Positions 8,507 to 24,285 of a stretch of DNA of 64,000 nt are shown here, piece by piece. Source of the DNA: an uncultured Rubritalea sp. (GTDB lineage Bacteria; Verrucomicrobiota; Verrucomicrobiia; Verrucomicrobiales; Akkermansiaceae); NCBI GenBank assembly GCA_937923145.1, contig CALAJT010000017.1, positions 1 to 64,000 on the forward strand, written 5' to 3'. A program made the translations under genes and the position numbers. Under the pieces are notes generated by a model. It searched no databases, was not told the origin of the DNA, and worked only from the letters and a program-made list of their open reading frames with translations. The first letter of the stretch is position 1; every line of letters starts with the position of its first letter.

Positions 8507-8569
8507 TCACTAACGTCAGCTACTCGGCTCCAAATTGAAGTCGACAATCTGACCTACTAACAATTTTAA

Positions 8570-8605
8570 AAGCACCAAGTCTCCTAGAGACCTGGTGCTT
8601 TTTTG
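8570..8605 (+). terminator. Terminator of rpsL-rpsG
   Basis: AGCACCA (8571-8577) pairs with TGGTGCT (8593-8599); after one mismatch an inner GTCT/AGAC stem extends it. A run of six T follows. Its A-rich 5' flank could also make it act on the convergent beta-helix gene ending at 8641. Confidence 0.9.
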
Positions 8606-8640
8606 GTTATAAAATTAAAGGTGTCCCACTATAACTCCAG

Positions 8641-10410
8641 TTACTCAGGTCTCACCCCAGCTTTTTTCACGACTTCCTTGAGCCTGATCTCAGAATCTTT
8701 GTCATCGACATCATTGTCTACAAAAGTGTGATCCTCTGGGACATTTCTGAAGTGATGGACAGCATGAGCTTTCCTTTTGTCTTCTTCTTTCCAGGTCTCG
8801 ATGCGGCGCACTACATTGCGGCGAATGGTGATTCCTCGCGAGTATTGGTCGAAAAATAATCCTGAGCTTCCTGCACCAATTGCAGTGTCGGATCTCGGCA
8901 CATCATGAAGCCAGTTTTCCTCCACTATCATGCCCTCATTTTGCGCCAGAGTATAAATGCAGGAGCCGTCAGATAAATCCTTCATCACATCATAAATATC
9001 ATTCGCTCTTACTACGTTGCGCTTTACCGGAGTTGGACTCGGGTTCCAATTCCAACCAATGCTGATCCCAGAATAACCAAAATCGGCAATCCGGTTATGC
9101 TCAATGATATTATCGCTAGATTTCGCGACTCGTATCCCTACAGCAGCAGGATGAATCACCCCTCCACGCAATATCTCACAATCAGAAATCAACGTCTTAC
9201 CTGGCAGTTCATCAGTCTTCAATCTCACCTTCTTAGGGTCGATAGAAATACCTCCACCTCCCATATCATAAAATCCACAGCGACTAATTTTAACACCATG
9301 ACACTTACCCTCAATACCTATGCCATAAGACCCAACATTACGGAAAACACACTTCTCAAACACCGCACCGCTCGCATCGAACAACTGCACAGCTTCACCC
9401 AGTAGAGGAGCACTTTGAGGAACCGTCGACCCTTCTGGTAACTTACCCTTTGGGACCTCATCACCATAATATTTGCGGAACGCAGCCCACCAATCTTTAT
9501 GCTGATCATAAACACCGACCCCATAAGCAGAGTGGGCAAATTCTACGCCTCGGAATTTCACCCCTTCAGCCCCTTCAATACGGAGGATAGTCTCCAGTCT
9601 AGCAGCCACAAACTCATCTTCAGCTGGCACTCGTCCTTTCTCTAACAATATAGCGATCTCACCTTTATCAACGTCAAACATCCACTCCCCAGGGAGATCC
9701 ATTCCCATAAGAGTATTCTCTATGCAGTATGGAGTCCCTCCCCCAGTATTCACAGAATAGTTCCAATGAGAAATCGGATAACGACTAGGCGTATACATCA
9801 AAACATCACCCGTTTTTGAATCCCATTTCCAGAGCGGATGCCAAGATGCAGACCATGACCCGAAGGTCTCTACCATCGCTCCCTTAGGCTCCTTAGCCAT
9901 CTTCACGAACAAGGGAAGATCCTCCTTCTTGATCCGAATACCAGCATACAGATAGGGACGATCTTCTCTCCATGGTGCTACCAATTCAGCCGTAGTGGAT
10001 CGGCTCAATTCATGGTCAACCTTTGACAATGCATAACCTCGCAAATGCCCTTTATTAGGAATTCGACTCCGCTGCTTACGCCCGTCTTTCATAGAAAATA
10101 AATCTCTAACAATCAGACCCTTTACTGGAACTTTAGCTCGCCAGACACCATCACCATCGTGACGCCATCCACGGATAGCCACTCCCCCACTTAAAACGGC
10201 ACCTTCCTTACCAATAACTTCCAGCCCCTCCTGCTCTGCACCTAAAACTAATGTTTCATCTAAAAAATACAGCCCTTTTTCAATAACAACCTTAGTCACC
10301 CCTTCCCTTTTCATCGCAGCAGCAACGTCCTCACCAGACTTGACCACCACCTCTTTCGCCATCCCAAAGGGAGTAGCCAAAATCATCACTCCAAAAAATA
10401 TTTTCTTCAT
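8641..10410 (-). CDS. Secreted right-handed parallel beta-helix protein
   Basis: 589 residues with a signal peptide (MKKIFFGVMILATPFGMAKE). The N-terminal part has the 'vksGEDVAAAMK' type start of beta-helix proteins that line up the first coil. The middle and C-terminal parts repeat coil motifs such as FEKCVFRNVGSYGIGIEGKC, VKISRCGFYDMGGGGISID and NIIEHNRIADFGYSGISIGW, and the last third has IYTLAQNEGMIVEENWLHDV. This fold is used by polysaccharide lyases, glycoside hydrolases and carbohydrate-binding proteins. I infer periplasmic or extracellular polysaccharide processing; catalytic residues cannot be assigned by eye. It is convergent with rpsG and has no operon partner. Confidence 0.75.
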   Translation of the reverse strand: MKKIFFGVMILATPFGMAKEVVVKSGEDVAAAMKREGVTKVVIEKGLYFLDETLVLGAEQEGLEVIGKEGAVLSGGVAIRGWRHDGDGVWRAKVPVKGLIVRDLFSMKDGRKQRSRIPNKGHLRGYALSKVDHELSRSTTAELVAPWREDRPYLYAGIRIKKEDLPLFVKMAKEPKGAMVETFGSWSASWHPLWKWDSKTGDVLMYTPSRYPISHWNYSVNTGGGTPYCIENTLMGMDLPGEWMFDVDKGEIAILLEKGRVPAEDEFVAARLETILRIEGAEGVKFRGVEFAHSAYGVGVYDQHKDWWAAFRKYYGDEVPKGKLPEGSTVPQSAPLLGEAVQLFDASGAVFEKCVFRNVGSYGIGIEGKCHGVKISRCGFYDMGGGGISIDPKKVRLKTDELPGKTLISDCEILRGGVIHPAAVGIRVAKSSDNIIEHNRIADFGYSGISIGWNWNPSPTPVKRNVVRANDIYDVMKDLSDGSCIYTLAQNEGMIVEENWLHDVPRSDTAIGAGSSGLFFDQYSRGITIRRNVVRRIETWKEEDKRKAHAVHHFRNVPEDHTFVDNDVDDKDSEIRLKEVVKKAGVRPE

Positions 10411-10580
10411 CTACTTTGTATACGATTGATCGACTAAGACCCTTATCATAATCTACGTCATAAACCTCAATCACTCAGTATATTTCTAAACCGTTGATGG
10501 AATATTCATCTTCCTTGTATGTTAGCTGTCTGTTAATTATTATTCATAAACTATCATCGAAAACCTCAACTCCCACCGCT

Positions 10581-11762
10581 ATGGCAGAAAATAACAACCT
10601 CATTTCCCCCGCTTACGCCCAGTGGCTAAGTGAACTCAAAAACCGCGTTCAGCAGGTTCAAACGAAAGCTGCGCTTGCAGTGAATCGTGAGCTTCTAGTC
10701 TTCTATTGGGAACTTGGCTGTGAGATCATTGAAAAACAAAAGAATGCGAATTGGGGCAGCGGCTTACTTCTTCAATTGAGCAAGGATCTATGCGCTAATT
10801 TCCCCGAAATCAAAGGCTTTTCGATACGAAACCTTCAATATATTGTTCACTGGTGCAACTTTTACTCAAGCGGAATTCCAATTACGCAACAGCCTGTTGC
10901 GCAATTGCCCGAAACATCTGAAAGACCTCCGCAAACATCTGAAAATAAGTCTCTAACTAACCCAACTACAATCTGTGACCAAATTGGGCAACAGGCTGTT
11001 GCCCAATTGCCTGAGTCCTTTCTTGAATCGATAACCTCTATCCCTTGGGGCCATAATATAGCCATCATCTCCAAGTGCTCCTCTATCAAGGAAGCTCTCT
11101 ACTACGTCAGCCAAACCCTGAACCATGGCTGGAGCCGTGCTGTCCTGGTCCATCAGATCGAGAGCGATCTCTATTCCCGCGAAGGTTCTGCCACTTCTAA
11201 CTTCGCCGCCACTCTACCTCCTGCACAATCAGATCTCGCCCAACAGACGCTCAAAGATCCCTACATTTTCGATTTTCTCACCCTCACCAAGGATCACAAT
11301 GAGAGGGATCTTGAAAATCAACTCACCGACCATATCTCCAAGTTCCTCATCGAGCTAGGGGCAGGTTTTGCTTACCTCGGTCGCCAAGTCCCACTTCAAG
11401 TCAGCGAACGCGAATTCTACCTAGACCTCCTCTTCTACCATACCCAACTCCACTGCTACGTTGTCATCGAGCTGAAAACAGGCGACTTCGAGCCCGAGTT
11501 CGCTGGCAAACTGAACTTCTACCTAAAAGCTGTCGACGAAACCCTACGCAGCGATCGAGACGAGCCCACCATCGGCATTCTCCTCTGCAAAACCAAGGAC
11601 AAGCTCATCGCCGAGTATGCACTAAGCGACATCAACAAACCCATCGGCGTCTCCGAATACCAACTCACCCAATCCCTTCCAGAATCTCTCAAACCCAGCC
11701 TCCCTTCCATCGAAGAATGGGAAGCCGAACTTCAACAGGACGTCGATGATGAGAACGAATAA
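10581..11762 (+). CDS. DUF1016 / YhcG-type PD-(D/E)XK nuclease (first copy)
   Basis: 393 residues. The N-terminal DUF1016_N domain (KAALAVNRELLVFYWELG, LSKDLCANFPEIKGFSIRN) is predicted to bind DNA; the C-terminal DUF1016 domain carries a restriction-type nuclease core with D282 (YLDLLFYH) and E297-x-K299 (VIELKTG). ATG 10581 is preferred; the frame opens at 10494 but that extension lacks family features. Between the two domains there is an insert with two QLPE repeats, encoded by a 17-base perfect palindrome (10885-10901) and a 27-base perfect palindrome (10982-11008), just before the conserved SIPWGHN. First gene of the island. Related proteins accompany restriction systems; activity here is inferred. 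Confidence 0.85.
   Translation: MAENNNLISPAYAQWLSELKNRVQQVQTKAALAVNRELLVFYWELGCEIIEKQKNANWGSGLLLQLSKDLCANFPEIKGFSIRNLQYIVHWCNFYSSGIPITQQPVAQLPETSERPPQTSENKSLTNPTTICDQIGQQAVAQLPESFLESITSIPWGHNIAIISKCSSIKEALYYVSQTLNHGWSRAVLVHQIESDLYSREGSATSNFAATLPPAQSDLAQQTLKDPYIFDFLTLTKDHNERDLENQLTDHISKFLIELGAGFAYLGRQVPLQVSEREFYLDLLFYHTQLHCYVVIELKTGDFEPEFAGKLNFYLKAVDETLRSDRDEPTIGILLCKTKDKLIAEYALSDINKPIGVSEYQLTQSLPESLKPSLPSIEEWEAELQQDVDDENE
10885..11008. repeat. Two palindromes inside the DUF1016 gene
   Basis: 10885-10901 is a perfect 17-base inverted repeat (CGCAACAG, C, CTGTTGCG). 10982-11008 is a perfect 27-base inverted repeat with arms of 13 bases (AATTGGGCAACAG and its complement) around G10995. Both share the core CAACAG-N-CTGTTG, are followed by CAATTGCC, and encode QLPE in the same frame. 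Confidence 0.9.
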
Positions 11763-11765
11763 AGC

Positions 11766-11789
11766 AATCCCGTGGAATTCGACGGGATT
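11766..11789. repeat. Intergenic dyad between DUF1016 and fic
   Basis: AATCCCGT (11766-11773) and ACGGGATT (11782-11789) flank GGAATTCG, itself nearly symmetric, giving a 24-base palindrome with one mismatched pair. No T run follows, so it is not a classical terminator; it could be an operator or an RNA hairpin at the 3' end of the DUF1016 message. Confidence 0.5.
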
Positions 11790-11888
11790 AGAAAACAAGC
11801 TATCACTGTAAAACAGAGAGATTTCAATAATGCTCTTCCTTGCTATTGTCCGTCTGCTAAGTATGATAATTAGAACTAAATAAGCCGC

Positions 11889-12494
11889 ATGATACTAGAA
11901 AACAAATTGAATATCAATGACCAAGCTTCCCTTGCTAGAGTGGAGGAAGAAATCAGCAAAAGGAAGGCAAAGCAACTCTTTGATTCTGGTGATATTGATA
12001 ACGTGGAGGTAGGAACCCATGCTGGTCTTGCCTTCATTCATGGGTATCTTTTTGACGAGATCTACCATTTCGCAGGGAAATTAAGAGAAGTAAATATAGC
12101 CAAAGGGAGCTTCCGTTTTTCCCCTGTAATGTACTTAAAGCCTTCACTTAAGAACATCGACCAAATGCCCCAAAACACCTTTGAAAAGATTGTAGAGAAA
12201 TATGTAGAGATGAATGTCGCCCACCCCTTCAGAGATGGCAATGGCAGAGCAACGAGAATCTGGCTAGACCTCATCTTCAAACAAGAACTACAACAAGTAG
12301 TGGATTGGAATTTAATCAATAAAGAAGATTACCTCATGGCGATGGAGCGCAGCGTAGTAAAGGACATAGAGATCAAACACCTCCTAAAACAAGCCCTGAC
12401 TTCAAAGATCAACGACCGAGAAGTCTATATCAAAGGAATTGATGTGAGCTACTACTACGAGGGATACACAACCTTTAAAACAGATGAGCTATAA
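11889..12494 (+). CDS. Fic family protein, class III-type
   Basis: 201 residues. Fic proteins transfer AMP (or another nucleotide moiety) to protein hydroxyls. The active-site loop HPFRDGNGRATR is at residues 112-123, complete with the catalytic His and the anion-binding GNGR. Near the C-terminus, S187-YYY-E191-G192 matches the inhibitory [S/T]xxxE[G/N] motif of class III Fic proteins, in which the C-terminal helix blocks the ATP site until self-modification or dissociation. No separate antitoxin gene is needed in that class. It lies 15 bases upstream of the methyltransferase gene and is more AT-rich than it. Its target, and whether it serves the restriction genes, are unknown. Confidence 0.85.
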   Translation: MILENKLNINDQASLARVEEEISKRKAKQLFDSGDIDNVEVGTHAGLAFIHGYLFDEIYHFAGKLREVNIAKGSFRFSPVMYLKPSLKNIDQMPQNTFEKIVEKYVEMNVAHPFRDGNGRATRIWLDLIFKQELQQVVDWNLINKEDYLMAMERSVVKDIEIKHLLKQALTSKINDREVYIKGIDVSYYYEGYTTFKTDEL

Positions 12495-12509
12495 TTAATT
12501 CTTATTACT

Positions 12510-15257
12510 ATGAACGCCGTAGAAATCGAAGAAGCCGTATCACTACTCGCAGAGCAGCCTTTTGAAGCTGAGGCTGATACTTTCCCCTACGCGTTTCTGG
12601 AGGCTTTTGGTAATAAAGCCACCACCATCAAACGTCTCAAAAGCGGAACGACGAATAAATCAGACATCGGCGGAGTATTACAGCGCGGCAATATCCACAT
12701 CAAGACCTGTGCAGAGGGCGAGGTAGCCGCTACCCTAGACACACTCAGGGACAGCCCTGCTACCAAAGCCCAGAAGGCTAAGTTCACCCTGGCTACCGAT
12801 GGTATAGAATTCCAAGCAGAGGATCTAGAAGGCGGTGAGACAGTAGCATGTGCCTTCCCTGACTTTGCAGACCACTTTGGCTTTTTCCTAGAACTAGCAG
12901 GCATCAGCACCGTTCGTGCTATCAAGGAAAGTTCCTTCGATATCAAGGCGACTGGGCGTCTCAATAAACTCTACATAGAACTCCTACAGGACAATCCCGA
13001 GTGGGCTAGCTCTGAGCGCAGGCATGATCTGAATCACTTCCTCGCTCGTCTCATCTTCTGCTTCTTCGCAGAGGATACAGATATCTTTCTGGGCGATGAC
13101 CTATTCACTGCCACCGTAGAGCAGATGAGTGAGCGGGACTCATCTAACACTCACGAGATCATCGCCGAGCTATTCCGCTCCATGGATACCAAGCCAGCGG
13201 AGAGGGAGAAGCAAAACATCCGCTCATGGGCAAATGTCTTTCCCTATGTAAATGGAGAACTCTTCCGAGTGGTAGACCCCACAGTAGGTCATGCCGTCCC
13301 CCATTTCTCTAAAATAGCGCGCTCCTATCTCAGCCACATTGGCAAGCTGAACTGGACCAAGATTAACCCAGACATCTTCGGTTCCATGATCCAGGCAGTG
13401 GCTGATGATGAAGAACGCGGCTCACTAGGCATGCACTACACCAGTGTGCCGAATATTCTTAAAGTCCTCAACCCGCTCTTCCTAGACGATCTCCGCACCA
13501 AGCTAGAAGAAGCAGCGGACAACACCCGTAAGCTCCTCAACCTCCGCACCCGCATCGCCCACATCCGCGTCTTTGACCCTGCCTGTGGCTCTGGGAACTT
13601 TCTCGTCATCGCCTATAAGGAGATGCGCCAGATCGAGGCTGAGATAAATCAGCGCCGTGGTGAGAAAGACCTCCGCTCAGCGATCGATGTCAGGAACTTC
13701 CGCGGCATTGAGCTACGTCACTTCTCTGCAGAGATCGCCCGTCTCGCACTCATCATCGCCGAATACCAGTGCGATGTCACCTACCGTGGGCAAAAGGAAG
13801 CTCTCGCAGAGTTCCTCCCGCTAGACAGGGCGAACTGGATCACCTGTGGCAATGCCCTCCAGCTAGACTGGCTCAGCGTCTGCCCACCCACAGGAACGGA
13901 AGTAAAACACCGTGCCGATGACCTCTTTAAAACCCCGCTAGATCAAGCAGAAATCGAATTCCGTAATGAAGGTGGGGAAACCTATATCTGTGGAAATCCA
14001 CCCTACAAAGGTAGTAAATGGCAGAAACCTGAGCAGAAATTAGATTTAAAGAATGCTTGGTCGAGATTCCCTCAGCTATCGAAAACTACTGATCTGGTCA
14101 CGGGTTGGATAGCTAAATATCTTAATTACACGCGTGTAGTGAACGATGCAAAAGCTGCATTCGTTGTAACGAATAGCGTCTGTCAAGGTCAGCAGGCTTC
14201 TGATATTTGGTCAGTCGTTTTTAGCGAAAGTATCGAAATCAATTTTGCTCAACTTCCATTCAAGTGGCGTAATCTTGCTAGTCATAATGCAGGTGTAACC
14301 GTAATTATTATAGGTCTTGGCGTCAAAGACTCAAATCCCAAACAGTTATTTGATAAGAGTCAGCTAAGAGTTTGTGATTCGATCGGTCCATATCTAGTTC
14401 CTAATTCAGAGGAGATTGTCGACAGCATAAGACATCCGACTGATCAAAAAGCAAAAATGTTATTTGGGAATATGCCACGAGATGGCGGCCATCTATTTTT
14501 AACTTCTGAGGAAGCCCAATTTTTAAAATCACAGCCTTCAACTAGTAGGTATGTAAAAAAATTCTACGGTTCAAAAGAATTCATTAATGGTAAAGAACGT
14601 TTTTGCTTATGGATAAATGATATTGATTCAGAAAATGCCAAGGAAGATACTTTTATTGCAAAAAAACTCCAGCTTGTATCTGAAAATAGAACTAACTCAA
14701 AGGCTCCTTCTACACAAGCGTTTGCCACACAACCACACAGGTTTGTTCAGCGAGCAGGAATCTGCCGAAATTACACCATTGTTATCCCTGGCGTTTCATC
14801 CGAATCCAGATCTTATCTCCCATGCGGATTACTTGGTGCAGAGGATGTTATTTCTAATAAGAATTTCGGGATGTTCGACGCCCCGCTCTGGAATATGGCT
14901 CTCATTGCCTCACGACTCCACTGGGTATGGATTGGCACAGTTTGCGTTAGAATGAGAACAGATTTTTCTTACTCCAACACCCTCGGCTGGAACACCTTCC
15001 CCGTCCCTACTCTCACGGAGAACGACAAAGCCGCTCTAACCAAATGCGCAGAAGACATTCTCCTAGCCCGTGAAGCTCATTTCCCTGCTACCATCGCTGA
15101 TCTCTACAAACCAGACACGATGCCGGACAACCTCCGTGCAGCACACGAGCGCAATGACGAAACCCTAGAGCGCATCTACATCGGTCGCCGCTTCAAAAAC
15201 GACACCGAGCGCCTAGAAAAACTATTCGACCTCTACACCAAAATGACCACCACATAG
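12510..15257 (+). CDS. MmeI-like DNA adenine methyltransferase (modification subunit)
   Basis: 915 residues laid out like MmeI-family type IIG proteins: N-terminal domain, helical spacer, gamma-class N6-adenine methyltransferase, target-recognition region and C-terminal tail. SAM-binding motif I FDPACGSGNFL is at 355-365 and catalytic motif IV NPPY at 496-499; HYTS near 310 is the usual pre-methylase motif. In the N-terminal domain, where MmeI has a D...ExK nuclease site, I see D52 and K65 but INIHIK-type residues instead of the acidic one, so cleavage is probably lost. Bases about 13990-14950 (target-recognition part) are clearly more AT-rich than both flanks, suggesting domain exchange. Follows fic by 15 bases. 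Likely methylates the system's recognition site. Confidence 0.85.
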   Translation: MNAVEIEEAVSLLAEQPFEAEADTFPYAFLEAFGNKATTIKRLKSGTTNKSDIGGVLQRGNIHIKTCAEGEVAATLDTLRDSPATKAQKAKFTLATDGIEFQAEDLEGGETVACAFPDFADHFGFFLELAGISTVRAIKESSFDIKATGRLNKLYIELLQDNPEWASSERRHDLNHFLARLIFCFFAEDTDIFLGDDLFTATVEQMSERDSSNTHEIIAELFRSMDTKPAEREKQNIRSWANVFPYVNGELFRVVDPTVGHAVPHFSKIARSYLSHIGKLNWTKINPDIFGSMIQAVADDEERGSLGMHYTSVPNILKVLNPLFLDDLRTKLEEAADNTRKLLNLRTRIAHIRVFDPACGSGNFLVIAYKEMRQIEAEINQRRGEKDLRSAIDVRNFRGIELRHFSAEIARLALIIAEYQCDVTYRGQKEALAEFLPLDRANWITCGNALQLDWLSVCPPTGTEVKHRADDLFKTPLDQAEIEFRNEGGETYICGNPPYKGSKWQKPEQKLDLKNAWSRFPQLSKTTDLVTGWIAKYLNYTRVVNDAKAAFVVTNSVCQGQQASDIWSVVFSESIEINFAQLPFKWRNLASHNAGVTVIIIGLGVKDSNPKQLFDKSQLRVCDSIGPYLVPNSEEIVDSIRHPTDQKAKMLFGNMPRDGGHLFLTSEEAQFLKSQPSTSRYVKKFYGSKEFINGKERFCLWINDIDSENAKEDTFIAKKLQLVSENRTNSKAPSTQAFATQPHRFVQRAGICRNYTIVIPGVSSESRSYLPCGLLGAEDVISNKNFGMFDAPLWNMALIASRLHWVWIGTVCVRMRTDFSYSNTLGWNTFPVPTLTENDKAALTKCAEDILLAREAHFPATIADLYKPDTMPDNLRAAHERNDETLERIYIGRRFKNDTERLEKLFDLYTKMTTT

Positions 15258-15340
15258 TCCTAATCTGCCGATTAGTGTAAAAAAAGATGTATAATACACT
15301 AGAAAAGTGTAAAATAAGGTGTAAAGAAAGAGGTATAGAA
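15258..15340 (+). promoter_or_regulatory. Putative internal promoter with repeated GTGTAAA boxes
   Basis: A perfect TATAAT lies at 15290-15295. GTGTAAA occurs in direct orientation at 15275, 15307 and 15319, and the inverted TACAC lies at 15295-15299 overlapping the -10. No good -35 is visible at 17 bases. AGAAAGAGG at 15325-15333 is a plausible ribosome site for ATG 15341. The arrangement resembles a promoter with operator boxes, perhaps bound by the HTH protein encoded two genes down. Confidence 0.45.
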
Positions 15341-16147
15341 ATGGCAACTAAAACGACAAATTCTGATTTTGCTCTAAGTAATCCGCCTTTAATCTGCGTA
15401 GTGGCACGTATGCAGTTTACACCGATTCCAAGGATCAAAAACTACGTAATCAATCTTCAAGACGAACTCAGACAGCAAGGGTTTCTTCACTTTGAAGAAA
15501 GGATCACACATGCTATTCACATTGATCAAAAAGCTGAAGTAGGCACGAACGTATCCTTTAAAAAGGTAAAGCAATGGGTCATTGCGGATCAAAAGCGTAA
15601 TGTCTCCATAAGGCTAGATGATAGCAGTATCTCTATTTTATTTGGCGACTACACCAACTTCTGTGATGCCCTTCCATTTTATCAGGAGCTGCTGCAGGCA
15701 ATTGAAAAGAACATCGTAGGAATCACTTATAATCAACTACAGTTACGCTACATAAATTACATTAATCTATCCGAGGTGGTGGCACCAGATCAATGGGTCC
15801 AGCCTTCTGTATTAGGCTTACCAAATCTACCTGACTTGCAACGATCCGCAAGCGTATCAGAAACTAGCTACCAAACAACATCAGGAGGTCGCTTAGTAGT
15901 GCGCTGCTCATCTATGCCCAGCGGAATCACCATGCCACCAGATTTACTACCATTAGAGATAAGCACTCGACACCCACTGAAATCATCCAGCCCATTCATT
16001 CTTCTAGAAAACTTACATGCCATCAAACTACCCGATGAAATCTTTACCGCTGAAACTTGCTTAAAGCAGTTTAAGGAAATGAGAGCGGATATCCATAAAG
16101 CGTTCAAGCAAACCACAACCCAGAAAGCACAAGAGTCATGGAAATAA
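15341..16147 (+). CDS. TIGR04255 family protein
   Basis: 268 residues from ATG 15341, chosen over the upstream ATG 15287 because AGAAAGAGG precedes it and the upstream ATG overlaps the predicted -10. The N-terminal VVARMQFTPIPRIKNYVINL, the central KQWVIADQKRNVSIRLDDS with FGDYTNFCDALPFYQELL, and GITYNQLQLRYINYINLSEV match the pattern of the sporadic TIGR04255 family, whose function is unknown. No signal peptide, membrane segment or known catalytic motif. It overlaps the next gene by 10 bases, so the two products are probably made in coupled fashion. Inferred accessory component of the island. Confidence 0.7.
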   Translation: MATKTTNSDFALSNPPLICVVARMQFTPIPRIKNYVINLQDELRQQGFLHFEERITHAIHIDQKAEVGTNVSFKKVKQWVIADQKRNVSIRLDDSSISILFGDYTNFCDALPFYQELLQAIEKNIVGITYNQLQLRYINYINLSEVVAPDQWVQPSVLGLPNLPDLQRSASVSETSYQTTSGGRLVVRCSSMPSGITMPPDLLPLEISTRHPLKSSSPFILLENLHAIKLPDEIFTAETCLKQFKEMRADIHKAFKQTTTQKAQESWK

Positions 16148-16824
16148 CAATGGATTACACCAATCAACTCCCGGTCACTTTAGGACAAACAGGAGCTGCA
16201 GAAAAAGTGGTAACAAGCGTAATGGGCATCCTATTTTTAGGTGCTCCTGGAGATGCTATTGCACTCCAGCAAGGCCCTATAGAAACATCTATTCTATACT
16301 CTAGCTCTCAAAGCATCCCTCTAGCCGAAGTAATAGAAAAACCGGCCACATTTCAGCCAAGTGAATCTATCACATTCATTAGAAAAATCTATGGATTTAA
16401 CGTCACCGAGCTAGCTCAGCTACTCGGAGTTACCCGTCCCACGGTCTACAACTGGATAAAAGGAGGAGAAGTCAAAAAAGAAATCTCCGCTAAACTCCAA
16501 GTGTTGGAGGCTGTAGCTAAGCACTGGAGTAAGCTACAAGGGGATGATAATATCTCATTCCTGTTCGACTACAAAGGAACACAAGCTAGCGACATTTCTC
16601 TACGTGAGGCGATGAGCCAGGAGGTAATAGAAACCGATACTCTCACTAATCTCATAGATACTCGTCTGGCTGAATATCAGAGTGCCGCCACAGAATCCCG
16701 AAAAATCATCGGTAACGTGGAGTTAGTGAGAAACTCTGAAATACCAGAAAGCTCTAAAAAACTCAACCAGCTCTGGTCTGATAACATAACAAAACTGAAG
16801 ACCGCTCAACATAAAGGTAGCTAA
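16138..16824 (+). CDS. Helix-turn-helix protein, probable regulator
   Basis: 228 residues. A helix-turn-helix of the XRE/phage-repressor type lies at about residues 79-112 (YGFNVTELAQLLGVTRPTVY followed by NWIKGGEV). The N-terminal ~70 residues are hydrophobic and polar mixed with no recognised fold; the C-terminal 110 residues look helical (LREAMSQEVIETDTLTNLID). The start overlaps the TIGR04255 gene by 10 bases and the stop shares one base with the next ATG (TAATG). It could repress the promoter with GTGTAAA boxes at 15275-15325. Ligand and partner unknown. Confidence 0.65.
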   Translation: MEITMDYTNQLPVTLGQTGAAEKVVTSVMGILFLGAPGDAIALQQGPIETSILYSSSQSIPLAEVIEKPATFQPSESITFIRKIYGFNVTELAQLLGVTRPTVYNWIKGGEVKKEISAKLQVLEAVAKHWSKLQGDDNISFLFDYKGTQASDISLREAMSQEVIETDTLTNLIDTRLAEYQSAATESRKIIGNVELVRNSEIPESSKKLNQLWSDNITKLKTAQHKGS

Positions 16825-17603
16825 TGGTGGATCTAAGGCAGCAGTTAATCGATAAAGGCTGGAAGCAAGGTGTGATCCTTGATTCTGGCTGTATCGATAC
16901 GCCGCCAGATCACTGTATAGGATGCCTAGTCCTCACCCAAACTTGCGACTGTATTAATCCTTGTTTCGAGAAGGAACCGCACCTTGAGCTTCTGCCTCTA
17001 ATAGAGGTAATTGGTAAAGCGGATAAAAATTTCACCAATGGCAAGAACCCTCGAAAAATTCAGTTTACCATTCATGACGGAACTACAGATCTATGGGTCA
17101 CAGCTAAAATCCACGATATTCGGCAAATTGATAGATCAACACACGAGGATCTAGAATTCTCCGCTAATCTATCTATTGGCAGCAGCTTGGATTCAATTAT
17201 CGTTTGGAGAGTCGCTCGCTACGCCAGAACAGCCTTCCCTGATCATTTTGTGAATGCATTCAAGCGTATTTCTGACAAGTTTGGGAAACGTATTAAGTAT
17301 GAGAAACGAGATCAGCTTATCCATTCCCTACTATTATCACTTCAGCCTTTCCATGATCTAGAAGACGAAGAGGAATATGAAATACAGATACTCTTGATGA
17401 TTGAGCCCTCCGTATTGGGAAATATTAACGACGTCAAAGATCTACAAACTCTCTCAGAAGAACTCACCAAAATATTACAGAGTATTGATTGCTTTGATTC
17501 ACCTGTGTGCAAAATTTTATCGCTAGATCAAATGAATATGATGGAAAGAGAAAACTATCATGAGTTCACTCATTATGATTACCTTTCTTTTGGGGAAATA
17601 TAA
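16824..17603 (+). CDS. Uncharacterised Cys-rich LTQTCD protein
   Basis: 259 residues that I cannot assign to a named family. Six cysteines cluster in the first 47 residues (C23, C31, C34, C41, C43, C47) around CLVLTQTCDCINPCFEKEPH; the LTQTCD strand followed by an acidic-polar stretch looks like a conserved core. The central part has IQFTIHDGTTDLWVTAKIHD and VWRVARYARTAFPDHFVNAF; the C-terminal part is acidic and helical. No signal peptide or membrane segment. The ATG overlaps the preceding stop by one base. With the two upstream genes it forms a tightly coupled three-gene module. A metal site on the cysteines is possible but unproven. Confidence 0.55.
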   Translation: MVDLRQQLIDKGWKQGVILDSGCIDTPPDHCIGCLVLTQTCDCINPCFEKEPHLELLPLIEVIGKADKNFTNGKNPRKIQFTIHDGTTDLWVTAKIHDIRQIDRSTHEDLEFSANLSIGSSLDSIIVWRVARYARTAFPDHFVNAFKRISDKFGKRIKYEKRDQLIHSLLLSLQPFHDLEDEEEYEIQILLMIEPSVLGNINDVKDLQTLSEELTKILQSIDCFDSPVCKILSLDQMNMMERENYHEFTHYDYLSFGEI

Positions 17604-17635
17604 ACAATCTAACCTCTTAAAAATAACACCCAATA

Positions 17636-18667
17636 ATGAGTGACATAGAATCAAATACAGGAGGTGACTTTGCCCCCATCGCCCAGCTCATCCGTGAGCG
17701 CCGCACCCGTGCCCTGCAGACGGTAAATCAAGAACTCGTCTCTCTCTACTGGGAAGTAGGAAAAGTCCTCCATGCCAAAACCCAGTCTGACGGCTGGGGG
17801 AAAAAGACGATAGATGAGCTAGCAGCCTGCCTAAAACAGAGCCAGCCTGACTTAAAAGGATTCAGCCGCCGCGGTCTCTACCGTATGCGCCAATTCTACG
17901 AAACCTACCCTGGTTCAATTGTGCCAACACTGTTGACACAATTGTCATGGAGTCACCACCTACTGATATTCAGTCAATGCAAACAGCCTGAGGAACGTGA
18001 ATTCTACCTGCAAGCATCACTCAAAGAGCAGTGGTCATTCAGAGAACTCCAAAGACAGCTAAAAGGCGCTCTGTTTGATAGGATTGCACTCAGTCCGCCA
18101 ATTGTGTCACCAGTGGTGAGACAATTACATCCAACCGCTGAATCCGTCTTCAAAGACAACTACCTCGTCGAGTTCCTAGATCTCGCTGCGGATCATTCAG
18201 AGGCTGATCTCCACAAGGGACTGATCCTGAATCTTAAGAAATTCCTCACCGAGCTAGGGAGAGATTTCTGCTTCATTGGCTCTGAGCATCCGCTACAGGT
18301 CGGTAATCAAGACTTCGCGCTTGATCTCCTCTTTTTCCACCGAGATCTGAATGCTCTAGTCGCTATTGAGCTCAAAGTAGGGCGTTTCGAGCCTGAGCAT
18401 CTGGGCAAGCTGAACTTCTACCTCGAAGCCCTAGACCGTGATATCCGCAAGCCCCATGAAAACCCCAGTATCGGCTTACTACTCTGCGCATCCAAGGATG
18501 ATGAAGTAGTAGAATACGCGCTCAGCCGCTCACTCTCGCCATCCCTAGTGGCGGAATATAAGACTAAACTTCCGGATAAAGCCTTTCTCCAAGCCAAGCT
18601 CCATGAGTTTCTGGAACAGTCGGACTTCACCGAGCCGAGCTCCGAATCGACTTCAGAATCTACCTAA
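17636..18667 (+). CDS. DUF1016 / YhcG-type PD-(D/E)XK nuclease (second copy)
   Basis: 343 residues. The DUF1016_N domain (ALQTVNQELVSLYWEVGKVL, LAACLKQSQPDLKGFSRRGL) leads into QLSWSHHLLIFSQC, and the nuclease domain has D230 (FALDLLFFH) and E245-x-K247 (AIELKVG). Similar to the first copy over both domains but clearly diverged, so not a recent duplication. Two in-frame palindromes occur here too: 17916-17944 (29 bases, one mismatched pair) immediately before QLSW, and 18101-18125 (25 bases, one mismatched pair) at the domain border. The tail is Ser/Thr/Glu-rich. It sits 31 bases before the helicase gene and is a plausible effector nuclease of the system. Confidence 0.85.
   Translation: MSDIESNTGGDFAPIAQLIRERRTRALQTVNQELVSLYWEVGKVLHAKTQSDGWGKKTIDELAACLKQSQPDLKGFSRRGLYRMRQFYETYPGSIVPTLLTQLSWSHHLLIFSQCKQPEEREFYLQASLKEQWSFRELQRQLKGALFDRIALSPPIVSPVVRQLHPTAESVFKDNYLVEFLDLAADHSEADLHKGLILNLKKFLTELGRDFCFIGSEHPLQVGNQDFALDLLFFHRDLNALVAIELKVGRFEPEHLGKLNFYLEALDRDIRKPHENPSIGLLLCASKDDEVVEYALSRSLSPSLVAEYKTKLPDKAFLQAKLHEFLEQSDFTEPSSESTSEST
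17916..18125. repeat. Two palindromes inside the second DUF1016 gene
   Basis: 17916-17944: CAATTGTG, C, CAACA, C, TGTTG, A, CACAATTG; all pairs match except one. 18101-18125: ATTGTGTCACCA, G, TGGTGAGACAAT; one mismatched pair. The first shares the CAACA-N-TGTTG core and the flanking CAATTG with the palindromes of the first DUF1016 gene and lies at the equivalent place in the protein. Confidence 0.85.
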
Positions 18668-18697
18668 TACTTCATTTCAAACTAAATTTCTATCTCT

Positions 18698-20764
18698 ATG
18701 TCTAAACTTCCATCTATCCCCTCTGTATCAGTAAATTACGAGCAGAAAGGCACCTCCGCAAAGTCCAATGAGCTGGGGATGCGCCCGATGCAAGAGCGAG
18801 CGTATCAAAAGCGCGGTGAGCAGTATTTACTCATCAAATCGCCTCCTGCCTCTGGTAAGAGCCGTGCCCTGATGTTCATCGCACTAGATAAGCTGGAGAA
18901 CCAAGGCATGAAGCAGGCAGTGATCATCGTGCCAGAAAAGTCGATCGGGTCTAGCTTCCAAGATGAGCCACTCACTAAATTCGGCTTCTGGGCAGACTGG
19001 ACCGTGGAGCCTATGTGGAATCTCTGTAATGCTCCCGGTGGAGATGATGGCAAGGTGAACTCAGTGAAGAGCTTCCTAGATGGAGATTCTAAAATCCTAG
19101 TCTGCACTCACGCTACCTTCCGCTTCGCAGTGGATAAGTTCGGAGTGGAGGCATTCGATGATCGCTTGGTAGCTATCGATGAATTTCACCACGTATCCGC
19201 TAATCCAGATAATAAGCTAGGCGGTCACCTAGCGGACCTCATGGGCAGAGATAAGGCGCACGTTGTGGCTATGACAGGCTCGTATTTCCGTGGTGACACT
19301 GAGGCAGTGCTCCACCCAGACGATGAGGCTAAGTTCGACACCGTAGTTTACACCTACTACGAGCAGCTAAACGGCTATGAATATCTGAAACAGCTCGACA
19401 TCGGCTACTACTTCTACTCAGGTCCCTACTCCGATGAGATGCTCGCGGTGCTGGACCCGAACGAGAAAACCATCGTGCACATCCCCAATGTGAACTCACG
19501 AGAAAGCACCAAGGATAAGATCCGTGAAGTGGAACACATTCTCGAAGAGCTAGGCGACTGGCAAGGAACTGACCCAGCTACAGGATTCCAGCTGGTGAAG
19601 ACCGCAGAGGGAAAAATTCTAAAAATCGCCGATCTGGTAGATGATGACCCCTCTAAGCGAGACCGCGTCTCCGCATCATTGAAAGACTCAACCCAGAAGA
19701 ATAACCGTGACCACGTCGACATCATCATTGCCCTAGGCATGGCTAAGGAGGGATTCGACTGGATCTGGTGCGAGCATGCACTCACCGTGGGATACCGCTC
19801 CAGCTTGACAGAGATCGTACAGATCATCGGTAGAGCCACCCGTGATGCTCCGGATAAGAGGAAAGCGCGCTTTACAAATCTCATCGCTGAGCCAGATGCC
19901 ACGGAAGGCGCTGTGGTAGAGGCAGTCAATGATACCCTAAAGGCGATCGCTGCCAGTTTACTGATGGAGCAGGTGCTAGCCCCCCGCTTCGAGTTCCGCC
20001 CTAAGCGACCTAGCAATGGACCGACTGAGGGCTACGACTACGGTGAAGACGGCTACCAGAAAGATAAGCCAAATGTGGGATTCAATGGTGAGACAGGGAA
20101 AATCCAGCTAGAGATCAACGGTCTAGTAGAGCCGAAGAGCGAGCAAGCTCAGCGGATCTGTAAAGATGATCTAAACGAAGTCATCACCGCATTCGTGCAA
20201 GACAAGAATACGGTAGAGCGCGGGCTATTCGATGAGGAAGTCGTGCCAGAAGAGCTAACTCAAGTCCGTATGGGCAAGATCATAAAAGAAAAGTATCCAG
20301 ATCTTGACGGTGACGATCAAGAAGCCATCCGCCAGCATGCAGTTGCGGCATTGAACCTGATACAGAAAGCGAAGAAGAATCCTGCGAGCGGTGATGATGG
20401 CGACGATACGCCAAGCTCAAACACCGCTCTTATCGATGGCGTTCGTAAATTTGCTATGGATGTAAAAGGGCTCGATATTGATCTCATTGACCAGATTAAT
20501 CCCTTTGGCGAAGCCTATGCTATCCTGGCTAAGACAATGAGTGAAGAACGACTAAAGCGCATCAAGGAGGTAATCGAGGCGAAGAAAGTCAGCATGAGCC
20601 TAGATGAAGCTCGTGAGCTCTCCAAGCGTGCTCTGAAATTCAAGCAGGAAAAAGGTCGCTTACCAGCATTGACGGCAGCAGATCCATGGGAAAAGAAAAT
20701 GGCAGAAGGAGTAGCCTACTTACAACGCGTTGCAAAAGAAGCCAAGGAGGAACAGGATGCCTAA
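18698..20764 (+). CDS. SF2 DEAD/DEAH-type helicase or translocase
   Basis: 688 residues with superfamily-2 motifs: Q-like RPMQERAYQ near 29-37, Walker A PPASGKS at 49-55, DEFH at 161-164 in place of DEAD/DEAH, MTGSYF (motif III) near 192, and QIIGRATR (motif VI) at 375-382. The two RecA lobes occupy about residues 25-430. The C-terminal ~250 residues are acidic and helical with no recognised fold and probably contact partner proteins. No methylase or nuclease domain is fused. The next gene starts 8 bases inside its 3' end. I infer the DNA translocation motor of the restriction-like system. Confidence 0.85.
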   Translation: MSKLPSIPSVSVNYEQKGTSAKSNELGMRPMQERAYQKRGEQYLLIKSPPASGKSRALMFIALDKLENQGMKQAVIIVPEKSIGSSFQDEPLTKFGFWADWTVEPMWNLCNAPGGDDGKVNSVKSFLDGDSKILVCTHATFRFAVDKFGVEAFDDRLVAIDEFHHVSANPDNKLGGHLADLMGRDKAHVVAMTGSYFRGDTEAVLHPDDEAKFDTVVYTYYEQLNGYEYLKQLDIGYYFYSGPYSDEMLAVLDPNEKTIVHIPNVNSRESTKDKIREVEHILEELGDWQGTDPATGFQLVKTAEGKILKIADLVDDDPSKRDRVSASLKDSTQKNNRDHVDIIIALGMAKEGFDWIWCEHALTVGYRSSLTEIVQIIGRATRDAPDKRKARFTNLIAEPDATEGAVVEAVNDTLKAIAASLLMEQVLAPRFEFRPKRPSNGPTEGYDYGEDGYQKDKPNVGFNGETGKIQLEINGLVEPKSEQAQRICKDDLNEVITAFVQDKNTVERGLFDEEVVPEELTQVRMGKIIKEKYPDLDGDDQEAIRQHAVAALNLIQKAKKNPASGDDGDDTPSSNTALIDGVRKFAMDVKGLDIDLIDQINPFGEAYAILAKTMSEERLKRIKEVIEAKKVSMSLDEARELSKRALKFKQEKGRLPALTAADPWEKKMAEGVAYLQRVAKEAKEEQDA

Positions 20765-21959
20765 GAAGGTCAGCAAAGAAGACTTAGATTTACTCGGTGA
20801 ACTAGGCGTCGATACCACTGCTAAGAAACAGGCAGCACGAACACCAAAGGAGCAGCGCATCATCGCGGGATTCGAGGAGATCGAGCGATTTGTAGAAGAA
20901 AACGATAGAGCTCCAGAGCACGGCGAAAACCGTGATATATTTGAGCGGCTTTACGCTGTGCGACTAGATCAACTCCGAGCATCCGCGGAGTGCCGCGAGG
21001 TTCTAAAAGATATCGATACGAAAAACTTACTGGAGGTTCAAAATAATGATGAGATTTCATCCTTACTTAAGGAAGATTCTACCGATGATGAAATCCTGAA
21101 TGCACTGGGCATTATTCCTGCCCAGAAGCCCCACGATATTACTGAGCTAAAGCATGTCCGCTCTGAGAAGGAGAAGCAGACAGCGGATGAAATAGCCCAA
21201 CGAACTGTCTGCCAAGACTTCGGGATTCATAAGCCCATGTTCCTAGAAATGAAACGCAATCTAAAATCTGGGAGCTGGAAAATAATAGATTGCAAAAATA
21301 AAGCAGAGGTCAAAACAGGTGAATTCTATATTATCCAAGGGCAAACAGCCTATCTAGCAGCGGCAAGCGAACTCTTCACGGATGGAGAAGGGAGACAAGA
21401 CTGTCGATTAAGAATTATTTTTGATAATGGAACAGAGAGCGGGATGTTAAGGCGCTCATTCCAAAAACGACTTTGGGAAGACCCTACAGCGAGAAGAATC
21501 ATACCGCTAGACAATCATGGTGAACTCTTTTCCGACAAGGAAGATGCTGACGATCAGAACGTCGGCTATGTTTATGTTTTACGAAGTAAGTCAGAGAACG
21601 ACTTCATAATTGAAAACCAGAAGATCATTCACAAAATTGGTATCACCAAAGGCTCGGTAAAAAAGCGTATTGCCAATGCCAAACAAGAAACTACCTACTT
21701 ATTGGCAGAAGTTGAGATAATAGAGACCTACAAGGTCTCAAACCTTAACATAACCAAACTTGAAAAACTACTCCACAAATTCTTCGACCCTGCTCGACTC
21801 GATGTGCAATTAAAAGACCGCTTCGGCTTCGATATTGCGCCAAGAGAGTGGTTCCTCATACCGCTCTCTGTTATTGAAGAGGCCATACAGAAACTTATCG
21901 ACGGAACATTACCTGACTATTGCTATAAGCCAGAGGAGGGTAAGATTGCTAGGATTTAG
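20757..21959 (+). CDS. GIY-YIG nuclease, T5orf172/MUG113 type
   Basis: 400 residues. ATG 20757 is chosen because AAGGAGG lies just upstream; it overlaps the helicase stop by 8 bases. Residues 1-130 are helical (SKEDLDLLGELGVD, FEEIERFVEENDRAPEHGEN). A middle domain (about 145-250) includes KPMFLEMKRNLKSGSWKII. The GIY-YIG module begins VGYVYVL near 269, with KIGITKGSVKKRI from 293 and a conserved EKLLHKFF, and ends near PREWFLIPL. This family cuts one DNA strand per active site. Translational coupling to the helicase gene suggests a motor-nuclease pair. Last gene of the island. Confidence 0.8.
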   Translation: MPKKVSKEDLDLLGELGVDTTAKKQAARTPKEQRIIAGFEEIERFVEENDRAPEHGENRDIFERLYAVRLDQLRASAECREVLKDIDTKNLLEVQNNDEISSLLKEDSTDDEILNALGIIPAQKPHDITELKHVRSEKEKQTADEIAQRTVCQDFGIHKPMFLEMKRNLKSGSWKIIDCKNKAEVKTGEFYIIQGQTAYLAAASELFTDGEGRQDCRLRIIFDNGTESGMLRRSFQKRLWEDPTARRIIPLDNHGELFSDKEDADDQNVGYVYVLRSKSENDFIIENQKIIHKIGITKGSVKKRIANAKQETTYLLAEVEIIETYKVSNLNITKLEKLLHKFFDPARLDVQLKDRFGFDIAPREWFLIPLSVIEEAIQKLIDGTLPDYCYKPEEGKIARI

Positions 21960-22024
21960 AGTAGATGCCATTTCATAATCAAACAGGCTTTTCATCTCAG
22001 TTTACTTTAGAGCTCTAAGAGCGT

Positions 22025-22075
22025 AAAAGAGGCTTGCCAGATGGTTCGTTCTGGCTATTTTGCGTCTCCCGCTGG
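22025..22075 (+). promoter_or_regulatory. Predicted fusA promoter
   Basis: GAGGCTTGCCAGAT contains TTGCCA (22034-22039), followed by a 16-base spacer and TATTTT (22056-22061), then GCGTCTCCCGC. The core GGCTTG-Y-CAGAT, the spacing, the TTCT just before the -10 and the GC-rich discriminator match the rpsL and rpsJ promoters. The promoter lies immediately after the island, so fusA has its own start site. Confidence 0.65.
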
Positions 22076-22134
22076 GCTCTTTATTGAGTTTCCATTGGCG
22101 GTCTATCGCATTAAGCAATAACTAGAAAGATACC

Positions 22135-24285
22135 ATGTCAGCTAAGTCAGATAATCCTAATCATCCTAAACGCTCTTACACACTTGAACGCACTCGTAAT
22201 ATCGGGATTGCGGCGCATATTGATGCGGGGAAGACGACTCTTACCGAGCGCATTTTATTTTACACGGGGATGATTCACCGTGTGGGTGAGGTGCATGATG
22301 GGGCTGCTACTACGGATCACATGGAGCAGGAGCGTGAGCGTGGGATTACGATTACTTCGGCAGCGGTTACTTGTGCTTGGGAGCAGGTTCCTGTGGATGG
22401 GGTGAAGAAACTTTATGAGGGAGAGAAGATGCGCGTCAATATCATTGATACTCCAGGGCACGTGGATTTCACTGCTGAGGTGGAGCGTTCGCTCCGGGTT
22501 CTTGATGGGACCGTGGTGGTGTTCTGTGGTGTGGCTGGTGTTCAGCCGCAGACTGAGACTGTTTGGCGACAGGCTACTAAGTATAATGTGCCTCGTATCG
22601 TGTTCGTGAATAAGATGGACCGTATCGGAGCTGACTTTGATAATGTTCTCAATGACGTGCGTGAGAAGCTCGGTGCAAATGCTGGTGCTATTCTCATCCC
22701 GATCGGTTCTGAGGAAGATCTCAGAGGTCAGATCGATGTGGTGAACCAGAAGGCAATCATTTTCCATGACGACAGCAAATGTGGCTCTGTATTCACTGTG
22801 AAAGAACTTGAAGGTGAGCAGATCGAAATAGCTACTCAGGCGAAGCTAGATCTGATCGACCAAATCGCTGATATCGATGAAGAACTCGGTGAGAAGTTCC
22901 TGATGGAGGAAGAAATCACCCCGACTGATCTCAAGGCCGCGATCCGCCGCGCGACGATCGGCAATGACTTCATCCCCGTTTCTGGAGGATCTGCATTTAA
23001 GAATAAGGGCGTTCAGTTTCTTATCGATGCAGTGATCGACTACCTCCCTAGCCCGCTTGATGTGGACTCGGCAAAAGGCATGGTTTCAGAAGATGACGAC
23101 ACTCCAGTGCTGGCACCTTCAGATGACAATGGCAAGTTCTGCTCACTCGCATTCAAGCTCTGGGCAGATAAGTTCGTAGGCAAGCTGGTGTTCTTCCGCG
23201 TTTATTCTGGTACTATTTCTAAAGGTGACATGGTTTACAACCCACGCACTGGTAAGCAAGAGCGTGTGCAGCGACTCATTCAGATGCAGGCGGACAAGAC
23301 TACCGAGATCGATACTGCTTATTCTGGTGATATTGCGGCTTATGTTGGTATCAAGAATGTAACTACTGGTGATACTCTCCGCGATAAGAAACTCGAAATT
23401 TTGTTAGAGCCTCCATCATTCCCAGAGCCAGTGATCGCTATGGCGGTAGAGCCTAAGACGGTGGCAGACTCAGATAAAATGTCTGTAGGTCTTCAGCGTC
23501 TTCAGGAAGAAGACCCGACATTCGTAGTGAAGACTGATGATGACACTGGCCAGACTATTATTGCAGGAATGGGCGAGCTTCACCTAGAGATCATTATTGA
23601 TCGTCTGAAGCGTGAATTTAATGTAGCAGCAAACGTAGGTAAGCCACAGATCGCCTACCGCGAGTCTATCTCAATGGCAGCTAATGGTCATGGTGAAATC
23701 AAGAAGCAGACAGGAGGCACTGGTCAGTATGCCGTGGTCAACATCGCTGTCCGTCCTAACGATAAGGGTAAAGGTCTCACTATCGACAACAAGGTCACTG
23801 GCGGAACTATTCCGAAAGAATACATCAAGTCTGTGATCTCAGGAATCGAAGGCTCTATGACTAATGGCTCAGTCGGGGGCTACCCAGTCATCGACGTTCA
23901 CGTAGATATCATAGACGGTGAGGCTCACGATGTGGACTCGAATGACAACGCATTCAAAGTCGCCGCGATTTTTGCAGTGCGCGATGCATTTGAGAAAGCA
24001 GGTCCTCAGTTACTAGAGCCAGTCATGGATGTAGAAATCTCTACTCCTATCGATTATCAAGGCGATATCATGGGCGATCTCAACCGCAGACGAGCACTCA
24101 TTGGCGGTATGGAATCCAAAGGCAATGTCAGCACCCTCAAGGCACAAGTTCCACTCGCAGAAATGTTCGGCTACATGACAGCACTGAGAACTGTTTCCTC
24201 CGGCAGAGCCTCATTCACCATGGAGCCCTCTAGCTTCGAGCCAGTTCCGCAGGCTATTGTTGATGAGAAATTTGGCGCGCGCTGA
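22135..24285 (+). CDS. fusA: Elongation factor G
   Basis: 716 residues, full-length bacterial EF-G, the GTPase that drives ribosomal translocation. G1 AAHIDAGKTTLTERIL, switch II DTPGHVDFTAEVERSLRVLD and NKMD (G4) are intact, as are domain IV residues (TGGTGQYAVV, GIEGSMTNGSVGGYPV). The N-terminus has a short basic extension (SAKSDNPNHPKRSYTLERTR). Separated from rpsG by the island and not followed by tuf; transcribed from its own promoter at about 22034. Confidence 0.97.
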   Translation: MSAKSDNPNHPKRSYTLERTRNIGIAAHIDAGKTTLTERILFYTGMIHRVGEVHDGAATTDHMEQERERGITITSAAVTCAWEQVPVDGVKKLYEGEKMRVNIIDTPGHVDFTAEVERSLRVLDGTVVVFCGVAGVQPQTETVWRQATKYNVPRIVFVNKMDRIGADFDNVLNDVREKLGANAGAILIPIGSEEDLRGQIDVVNQKAIIFHDDSKCGSVFTVKELEGEQIEIATQAKLDLIDQIADIDEELGEKFLMEEEITPTDLKAAIRRATIGNDFIPVSGGSAFKNKGVQFLIDAVIDYLPSPLDVDSAKGMVSEDDDTPVLAPSDDNGKFCSLAFKLWADKFVGKLVFFRVYSGTISKGDMVYNPRTGKQERVQRLIQMQADKTTEIDTAYSGDIAAYVGIKNVTTGDTLRDKKLEILLEPPSFPEPVIAMAVEPKTVADSDKMSVGLQRLQEEDPTFVVKTDDDTGQTIIAGMGELHLEIIIDRLKREFNVAANVGKPQIAYRESISMAANGHGEIKKQTGGTGQYAVVNIAVRPNDKGKGLTIDNKVTGGTIPKEYIKSVISGIEGSMTNGSVGGYPVIDVHVDIIDGEAHDVDSNDNAFKVAAIFAVRDAFEKAGPQLLEPVMDVEISTPIDYQGDIMGDLNRRRALIGGMESKGNVSTLKAQVPLAEMFGYMTALRTVSSGRASFTMEPSSFEPVPQAIVDEKFGAR

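Follow-up and report, generated by a model that had tools for sequence, protein, structure and literature searches.

The closest described relative of the locus considered here is the yeeA(dnmA)-yeeB-yeeC arrangement of Bacillus subtilis, which is already in print with a proposed Type I-like action (PMC7261158, citing Morgan 2009), and a synteny of dnmA, yeeB and yeeC has since been extended to homologues (PMC9973331). The B. subtilis methyltransferase DnmA was reported to methylate one adenine of a non-palindromic site, and Vibrio crassostreae mutants deleted for the dnmA and yeeB homologues were more sensitive to some phage subclades but not to the rest (cited in PMC9973331). The locus studied here lies in contig CALAJT010000017.1 of an uncultured Rubritalea sp., of which positions 1 to 64,000 form the window, meaning the whole stretch analysed, and consists of genes for an MmeI-like methyltransferase (12510-15257), a superfamily 2 (SF2) helicase (18698-20764) and a GIY-YIG nuclease (20730-21959), all on the + strand. 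It is probably a member of the YeeA-YeeB-YeeC family and would form a three-chain, ATP-dependent restriction-modification (RM) system with a Type I-like action built from MmeI parts. The window shares with that family an MmeI-like methyltransferase without a nuclease motif, followed on the same strand by an SF2 helicase and a T5orf172/GIY-YIG gene, whereas it differs from the B. subtilis locus in having four extra genes between methyltransferase and helicase. The link to B. subtilis was drawn from this architecture, from a plasmid-borne relative of the helicase in Acetobacter that is annotated YeeB (65% identity to that of the window) and from an MmeI_Mtase match in the B. subtilis control genome. 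A first-pass annotation had named these genes at the places where Pfam and the open reading frames (ORFs) confirm them; its suggestion of an uncatalogued type did not hold, the arrangement having been published for B. subtilis and homologues (PMC7261158, PMC9973331). The arrangement is real and already described in outline, and it looks functional.

Linkage and spread of the three genes

An alignment scan with the helicase of one genome per species (genome_contigs) gave at least 560 relatives, of which the best 80, a sample biased to the window's own subclade, were read; their record titles point to Alpha-, Beta- and Gammaproteobacteria, cyanobacteria, Firmicutes, Verrucomicrobia and other groups. 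Of the 80 loci, 73 had the methyltransferase 5' of the helicase and on its strand, as did all 56 with at least 6.5 kb upstream, and a GIY-YIG gene lay directly 3' in all 76 with at least 1.3 kb downstream. Among 43 loci from viral_contigs the corresponding counts were 25/26 and 39/41. The linkage is far above chance, and it bears out the first-pass view that modification, motor and nuclease are on three separate chains. The junction of the last two genes is also constant, the GIY-YIG frame opening -160 to +216 bases from the helicase stop in 79/79 loci showing both.

Within the phylum a helicase was present on the contig of 13/16 methyltransferases of the YeeA kind and of 0/51 solo ORFs, with the proviso that the other three YeeA-kind loci (L063, L066, L067) are less than 4 kb from the contig end on the helicase side and that several of the solo contigs are short. 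The helicase was detected in 15/288 genomes of the phylum (window counted, one match distant), and two phylum copies are split, one into two ORFs (L064) and one into two fragments (L122). A DNA search found it in 99/5426 E. coli genomes; seven of these loci were opened, four of them with one shared methyltransferase record, and all had the order methyltransferase-helicase-GIY-YIG with no intervening gene. Matches to the helicase occurred in 264 of 72,556 plasmid records. A phage origin was considered and set aside: 50,697 phage records yielded three helicase matches, all weak or partial, alongside the 43 loci from viral_contigs.

The window helicase, which matches Pfam DEAD/ResIII, carries PPASGKS, DEFH, TGS and QIIGRATRD, which we take to be Walker A and motifs II, III and VI, and these were invariant across 11 aligned sequences. 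In the GIY-YIG protein (Pfam T5orf172 and MUG113) the residues G279, Y282, K302, G304, R313 and E345, presumably the active site, occurred at 100% of the residues aligned there in an alignment of 108 sequences. Its gene probably starts at ATG 20757 rather than TTG 20730, since the resulting 8-nt overlap with the helicase is the one annotated in seven E. coli loci. A search of Foldseek with a model of this protein gave no match at E <= 0.001; the top matches, all weak, were small barrels of the EF-P/eIF5A type, one of them short (49 columns, 1.8 A, E 0.039), a weak hint that the protein may perhaps contain a nucleic-acid-binding barrel.

The nuclease-like and target-recognition domains of YeeA

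The methyltransferase is a protein of 915 amino acids in which Pfam recognises MmeI_N, hel, Mtase, TRD and C domains in that order, as the first-pass annotation had stated, and it matches MmeI (5hr4) with 435 bits. It carries DPACGSGNF (356-364), which we take to be motif I, and NPPY (496-499), likewise read as a methyltransferase motif. The best PADLOC model was the type IIG REase_MTase (899 bits), so that an automatic pipeline would label the protein a single-chain restriction enzyme. It resembles the single-chain MmeI/Type IIL (IIG) enzymes in having all five domains in the same order, but differs from them in the loss of the catalytic triad, in its linked helicase and in its separate nuclease gene.

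The loss of the triad was established by comparison with solo relatives. A search with the MmeI_Mtase profile covered 387 genomes of the phylum, 98 of which had a match; matches of at least 258 bits were used, and many of at most 137 bits were left out, except one from the window's own genome (L119). From these, 67 ORFs of at least 560 amino acids were aligned, 16 of the YeeA kind (L063, L066 and L067 assigned by similarity alone) and 51 solo. The motif D-x(9,10)-E-x-K was present in 46/51 solo ORFs; the other five were left out of the alignment, four of them running off the contig end (L101, L108, L111, L115) and the fifth being L110. In the joint alignment the three columns read D, E and K in 46/46 solo proteins and in 0/101 YeeA proteins, that of the window included, and the reading of the window protein as a single-chain MmeI enzyme was rejected on this ground. 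The first-pass annotation had rightly seen that the motif was missing, but had taken D52 and K65 as its remnants, which in this alignment they are not: the D column is a gap in 97/101 YeeA proteins and H in 4/101, the E column holds A, K, L, V, R or M (mostly A or K) and the K column C, A, V, T or S (mostly C or A). A looser D-x(8,12)-E-x-K within the first 110 residues occurred in 2/87 YeeA proteins, beginning at residue 33 in L200 and residue 20 in L238, off the aligned place.

Although empty of catalytic residues, the domain is not variable. Over 64 sequences the N-terminal domain had a mean pairwise identity of 0.74, against 0.69 in the methyltransferase domain and 0.80 in the C-terminal one, and N49, D52, G55, V56, L57, I62 and H63 are retained in 91-98%. 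As the N-terminal domain is conserved like the methyltransferase domain, its sequence indicates that it is repurposed rather than decaying. An AlphaFold2 model of residues 1-330 had a mean predicted local distance difference test score of 81.

Two other methyltransferases of the phylum deserve mention. The solo protein of L110 (G005:C2:32001-52000; 11346-13448 and 13643-14449) has no N-terminus, and an adjoining piece on the opposite strand weakly matches the MmeI N-terminal part (42 bits, 23%), so the nuclease domain there is possibly invertible or broken. The window's own genome has, in L119 (G000:C45:15894-16784 and 18879-19325), a second, distant MmeI-like methyltransferase frame of 1243 amino acids, directly followed by another DUF1016 gene.

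The target-recognition domain (TRD; about residues 634-835 in the window) is the most divergent domain of YeeA, with a mean pairwise identity of 0.44. All 12 pairs of loci whose helicases are at least 93% identical have TRDs that are 36-51% identical, the pairs spanning 15 loci, sharing loci and so not being independent. Such divergence between near-identical operons is expected of live restriction. Over 63 genome loci, with distances built on raw identities, TRD distances did not track helicase distances (r -0.11, 933/999 permutations as high), and helicase and GIY-YIG distances were correlated (r 0.74). Direct transfer of whole TRDs between loci is suggested by one pair alone, in which the TRDs are at least 75% identical and closer than both other parts.

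The slot between methyltransferase and helicase

The distance from methyltransferase stop to helicase start is bimodal: among 73 readable loci it is -4 to +4 bases in 28 and 258-3655 bases in 45, so that a slot at this place is either empty or filled. In 27/45 filled slots the methyltransferase stop and the start of the first + strand ORF overlap by 4 bases. Slot contents were called from mechanical ORFs, and the slot of L197 is oversized by about 1 kb since its methyltransferase spans two frames. Eight families recur: DUF1016, RhuM (Pfam 367.6 bits), AlbA/Schlafen with a RecG-C-type domain, and unnamed families of about 137, 260, 277, 290 and 365 amino acids; AbiEii and GmrSD_N are single cases. 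At least one of the eight was found in 34/45 filled slots, and most of the 11 with none contain nothing but small mechanical ORFs. The slot accounts for some 52 kb of the 1430 kb that the genome loci cover, and the recurring families are nearly restricted to it, the occurrences outside being one DUF1016 (L189, where the methyltransferase is off the contig) and two of the 365-amino-acid family (L130, L176); GmrSD matches outside the slot were seen in L124 and in the viral_contigs locus L224. In PADLOC, DUF1016 (PDC-S02) and RhuM (PDC-S05) are candidate entries and AbiEii is a named entry.

On a quick helicase tree (LG+G4, 74 rows) the presence or absence of the eight families requires at least 37 changes for 41 occurrences, and filled versus empty at least 16; with labels of one family per locus the number was 37 and with full family sets 38. 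With labels shuffled 200 times the families needed 44 changes on average (least 40) and the filled or empty state 22.6 (least 17). As shuffled labels need more changes, the slot retains some history, and exchange would be fast but not memoryless; on this reconstruction the contents appear to have been gained or lost repeatedly. The genes of the slot would be exchangeable cargo, most likely defence genes that act independently or as a back-up and not as subunits, the back-up role being a guess. Searches of the open-licence literature of PubMed Central (PMC) for accessory genes and for this family turned up no description of the slot, and the passages of PMC7261158 and PMC9973331 that treat the locus do not describe an insert site; section 8 of the latter mentions an uncharacterised protein family throughout the neighbourhood that could be another member.

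In the window the slot holds four genes, three of which the first-pass annotation left out: a TIGR04255 family protein (15287-16147, NCBIfam 101.7 bits), a helix-turn-helix (HTH) protein (16138-16824, Pfam HTH_17 above cut-off) and an unnamed protein of 259 amino acids with no informative family (16824-17603), whose homologues adjoin TIGR04255 genes. All three occur together again in G157:C42. TIGR04255 and a relative of the unnamed protein are also together on a Gloeocapsopsis plasmid, with one hypothetical gene between them, and on an Acinetobacter plasmid, with an HTH gene between them and 2.5 kb from type I RM genes. From these neighbourhoods the three genes (15287-17603) look like a small unit of their own, present in several phyla. 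Of 240 genomes of the phylum, 2 have the HTH gene and 2 the unnamed gene, window counted in both cases; the window HTH gene had no match in plasmids, and TIGR04255 is not named in the open-licence PMC literature.

The fourth gene encodes a predicted DUF1016/YhcG PD-(D/E)XK nuclease (17636-18667; Pfam YhcG_C 184.5 bits, DUF1016_N 145.6 bits). Two DUF1016 nucleases had been proposed as components in the first-pass annotation; this one does lie inside the operon, but the other (10494-11762), which also matches both Pfam domains far over cut-off, lies outside it, 5' of a Fic gene. DUF1016 was found in the slot of 6/80 genome loci, in two of which (L138, L180) the contig does not reach the methyltransferase and the 2.5 kb 5' of the helicase stand for the slot; the remaining four (L171, L174, L187, L188) are among the 45 filled slots. 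It was also in the slot of two near-identical viral_contigs loci (L222, L223), and in L054 and L056, as in the window, its gene stands between those of the methyltransferase and the helicase, and in L121 just 5' of the helicase. With 28 of 73 slots empty and DUF1016 in so few loci, its role as a fixed or conserved subunit was rejected. Ten plasmid neighbourhoods of DUF1016 were opened, of 467 matching records: one lies within hsdM-hsdS-hsdR, one is next to another restriction gene, and around the other eight no RM gene is annotated within 5 kb, one neighbourhood among these being nearly all 'hypothetical'.

The operon belongs to an island bounded by rpsG (8033-8506) and fusA (from 22135), a distance of 13.6 kb (8506-22135). 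After a leftward gene at 8641-10410 the + strand series runs DUF1016, Fic, MmeI-like methyltransferase, TIGR04255, HTH, unnamed protein, DUF1016, SF2 helicase and GIY-YIG. The Fic gene (11889-12494; NmFic type, NCBIfam NF046029, 302 bits) was rejected as a conserved part, the window Fic having no BLAST match in loci L124-L246. A Fic gene stands directly 5' of the methyltransferase, like that of the window, on Acetobacter plasmid pAC258-26 (L023, 5155-8997). In relatives rpsG is at most 1.5 kb from fusA in 22/29 loci; the contigs of L256, L279 and L280 break off there, fusA paralogues are what L281 and L282 contain, and in L254 and L255 rpsG was found neither near fusA nor in the 10.8 and 19 kb fetched 5'; genomes G390 and G392 are the exceptions. 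Because of this mixed spacing no claim is made that the island split an rpsG-fusA operon.

Mode of action and rival readings

With Type I systems (HsdM/HsdS/HsdR) the window has in common a translocase-type motor chain, a fast-diverging specificity domain and the placing of modification and motor on separate chains, whereas it has no HsdS, combines recognition and methylation on one MmeI-type chain and has a GIY-YIG nuclease on a chain of its own, the Type I nuclease being a PD-(D/E)XK domain fused to the motor. HsdS and HsdR families were absent from the Pfam and NCBIfam results for nine window proteins, where the only related matches were of the MmeI domain to N6_Mtase (30 bits) and of the helicase to ResIII (26 bits). 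A further likeness is that Type I loci may embed accessory genes, of which PrrC is an example among the genes coupled to restriction loci described in PMC12707154 and of which an hsdM-DUF1016-hsdS-hsdR order found here on an Aeromonas plasmid is another.

In the three-chain system that we consider probable, YeeA would read a non-palindromic site through its TRD and methylate one adenine, as published for B. subtilis DnmA, and its N-terminal nuclease-like domain, with the catalytic residues gone, would be a conserved docking or sensing surface. At unmodified sites YeeA would recruit the YeeB translocase, and the translationally coupled YeeC GIY-YIG nuclease, whose intact residues suggest activity, would cut. 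The genes between YeeA and YeeB, here the TIGR04255-HTH-unnamed set and the DUF1016 nuclease, would be exchangeable cargo.

Several results weigh against this proposal. By sequence no solved relative of YeeC was found, and for YeeB there were just two weak RNA-helicase matches. Foldseek with the model of YeeA 1-330 returned at E <= 0.001 MmeI 5hr4 alone (184 columns; the solved MmeI chains have 749-751 residues, the sequence 919) and no PD-(D/E)XK nuclease, so that support for the fold of the N-terminal domain comes from Pfam MmeI_N and from the order of its predicted elements. The independence of the TRD is also incomplete: its distances correlate weakly with those of the rest of YeeA (r 0.29, 0/999 permutations as high) and, when all 82 loci including distant ones are taken, with those of the helicase (r 0.26, 0/999 permutations as high), and distances of YeeA residues 1-620 agree moderately with those of helicase (r 0.45) and GIY-YIG (r 0.43) over the 63 loci. 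A further objection comes from B. subtilis itself, for which the passages of PMC7261158 and PMC9973331 that treat the locus report that dnmA-yeeB-yeeC gave no protection against three phages and did not limit transformation, and that its site is not under-represented in phage genomes; the authors call the locus a relic and note that its YeeB and YeeC are without C-terminal stretches.

Extended to the window, this would make YeeA an orphan methyltransferase that only marks DNA, with YeeB and YeeC as non-functional leftovers, and the two split helicase copies in the phylum would fit. We regard such a relic as unlikely here, since the helicase and GIY-YIG residues are conserved across phyla, the junction between their genes was retained in every locus showing both, TRDs diverge between near-identical operons and the three ORFs of the window are intact.

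A large methyltransferase with a separate helicase could also point to exclusion of the BREX (bacteriophage exclusion) or DISARM (defence island system associated with restriction-modification) kind, with a methylation-guided block and no cutting, and PADLOC did return DrmMI at 76.6 bits and PglX at 26 bits, both weak matches. In the scan of nine ORFs (10494-21959; best 25 matches for three proteins), however, no further BREX or DISARM family and no partner gene of those systems stands out, the best model is the type IIG enzyme and YeeC retains its nuclease residues, which leaves little probability for this reading. That the DUF1016 protein replaces the nuclease lost from YeeA, giving a four-chain restriction enzyme in this subset of loci, would agree with its place by the helicase in the window and the few loci named above and with its full match to both Pfam domains, but it is the least credible of the readings, given the empty slots, the rarity of DUF1016 in filled ones, a GIY-YIG gene retained throughout and plasmid copies mostly without an annotated RM gene nearby.

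The three-chain reading may be taken a step further, by analogy and with doubt. Modelled on the release of PrrC in a Type I locus, the YeeA-YeeB junction might be a dedicated hot-swap slot whose exchangeable back-up effectors (DUF1016, RhuM, AlbA/Schlafen, AbiEii, GmrSD, TIGR04255-HTH-unnamed and the unnamed families) are expressed through coupling to the methyltransferase and freed when a phage inhibits restriction, and the dead nuclease domain might be the docking hub of the three-chain machine; we hold this to be possible but not probable.

For the family-wide conservation of a dead N-terminal domain, the divergence of TRDs between near-identical operons and the cargo slot no earlier description was found in print. 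The family is widespread, with its at least 560 helicase relatives and its presence in E. coli, and yet the best PADLOC model places its methyltransferase among the single-chain type IIG enzymes. With the triad lost and the domain kept, the TRDs divergent and the junction open to exchange of suspected defence genes, the choice between a relic and live restriction with a built-in cargo bay has now become testable.

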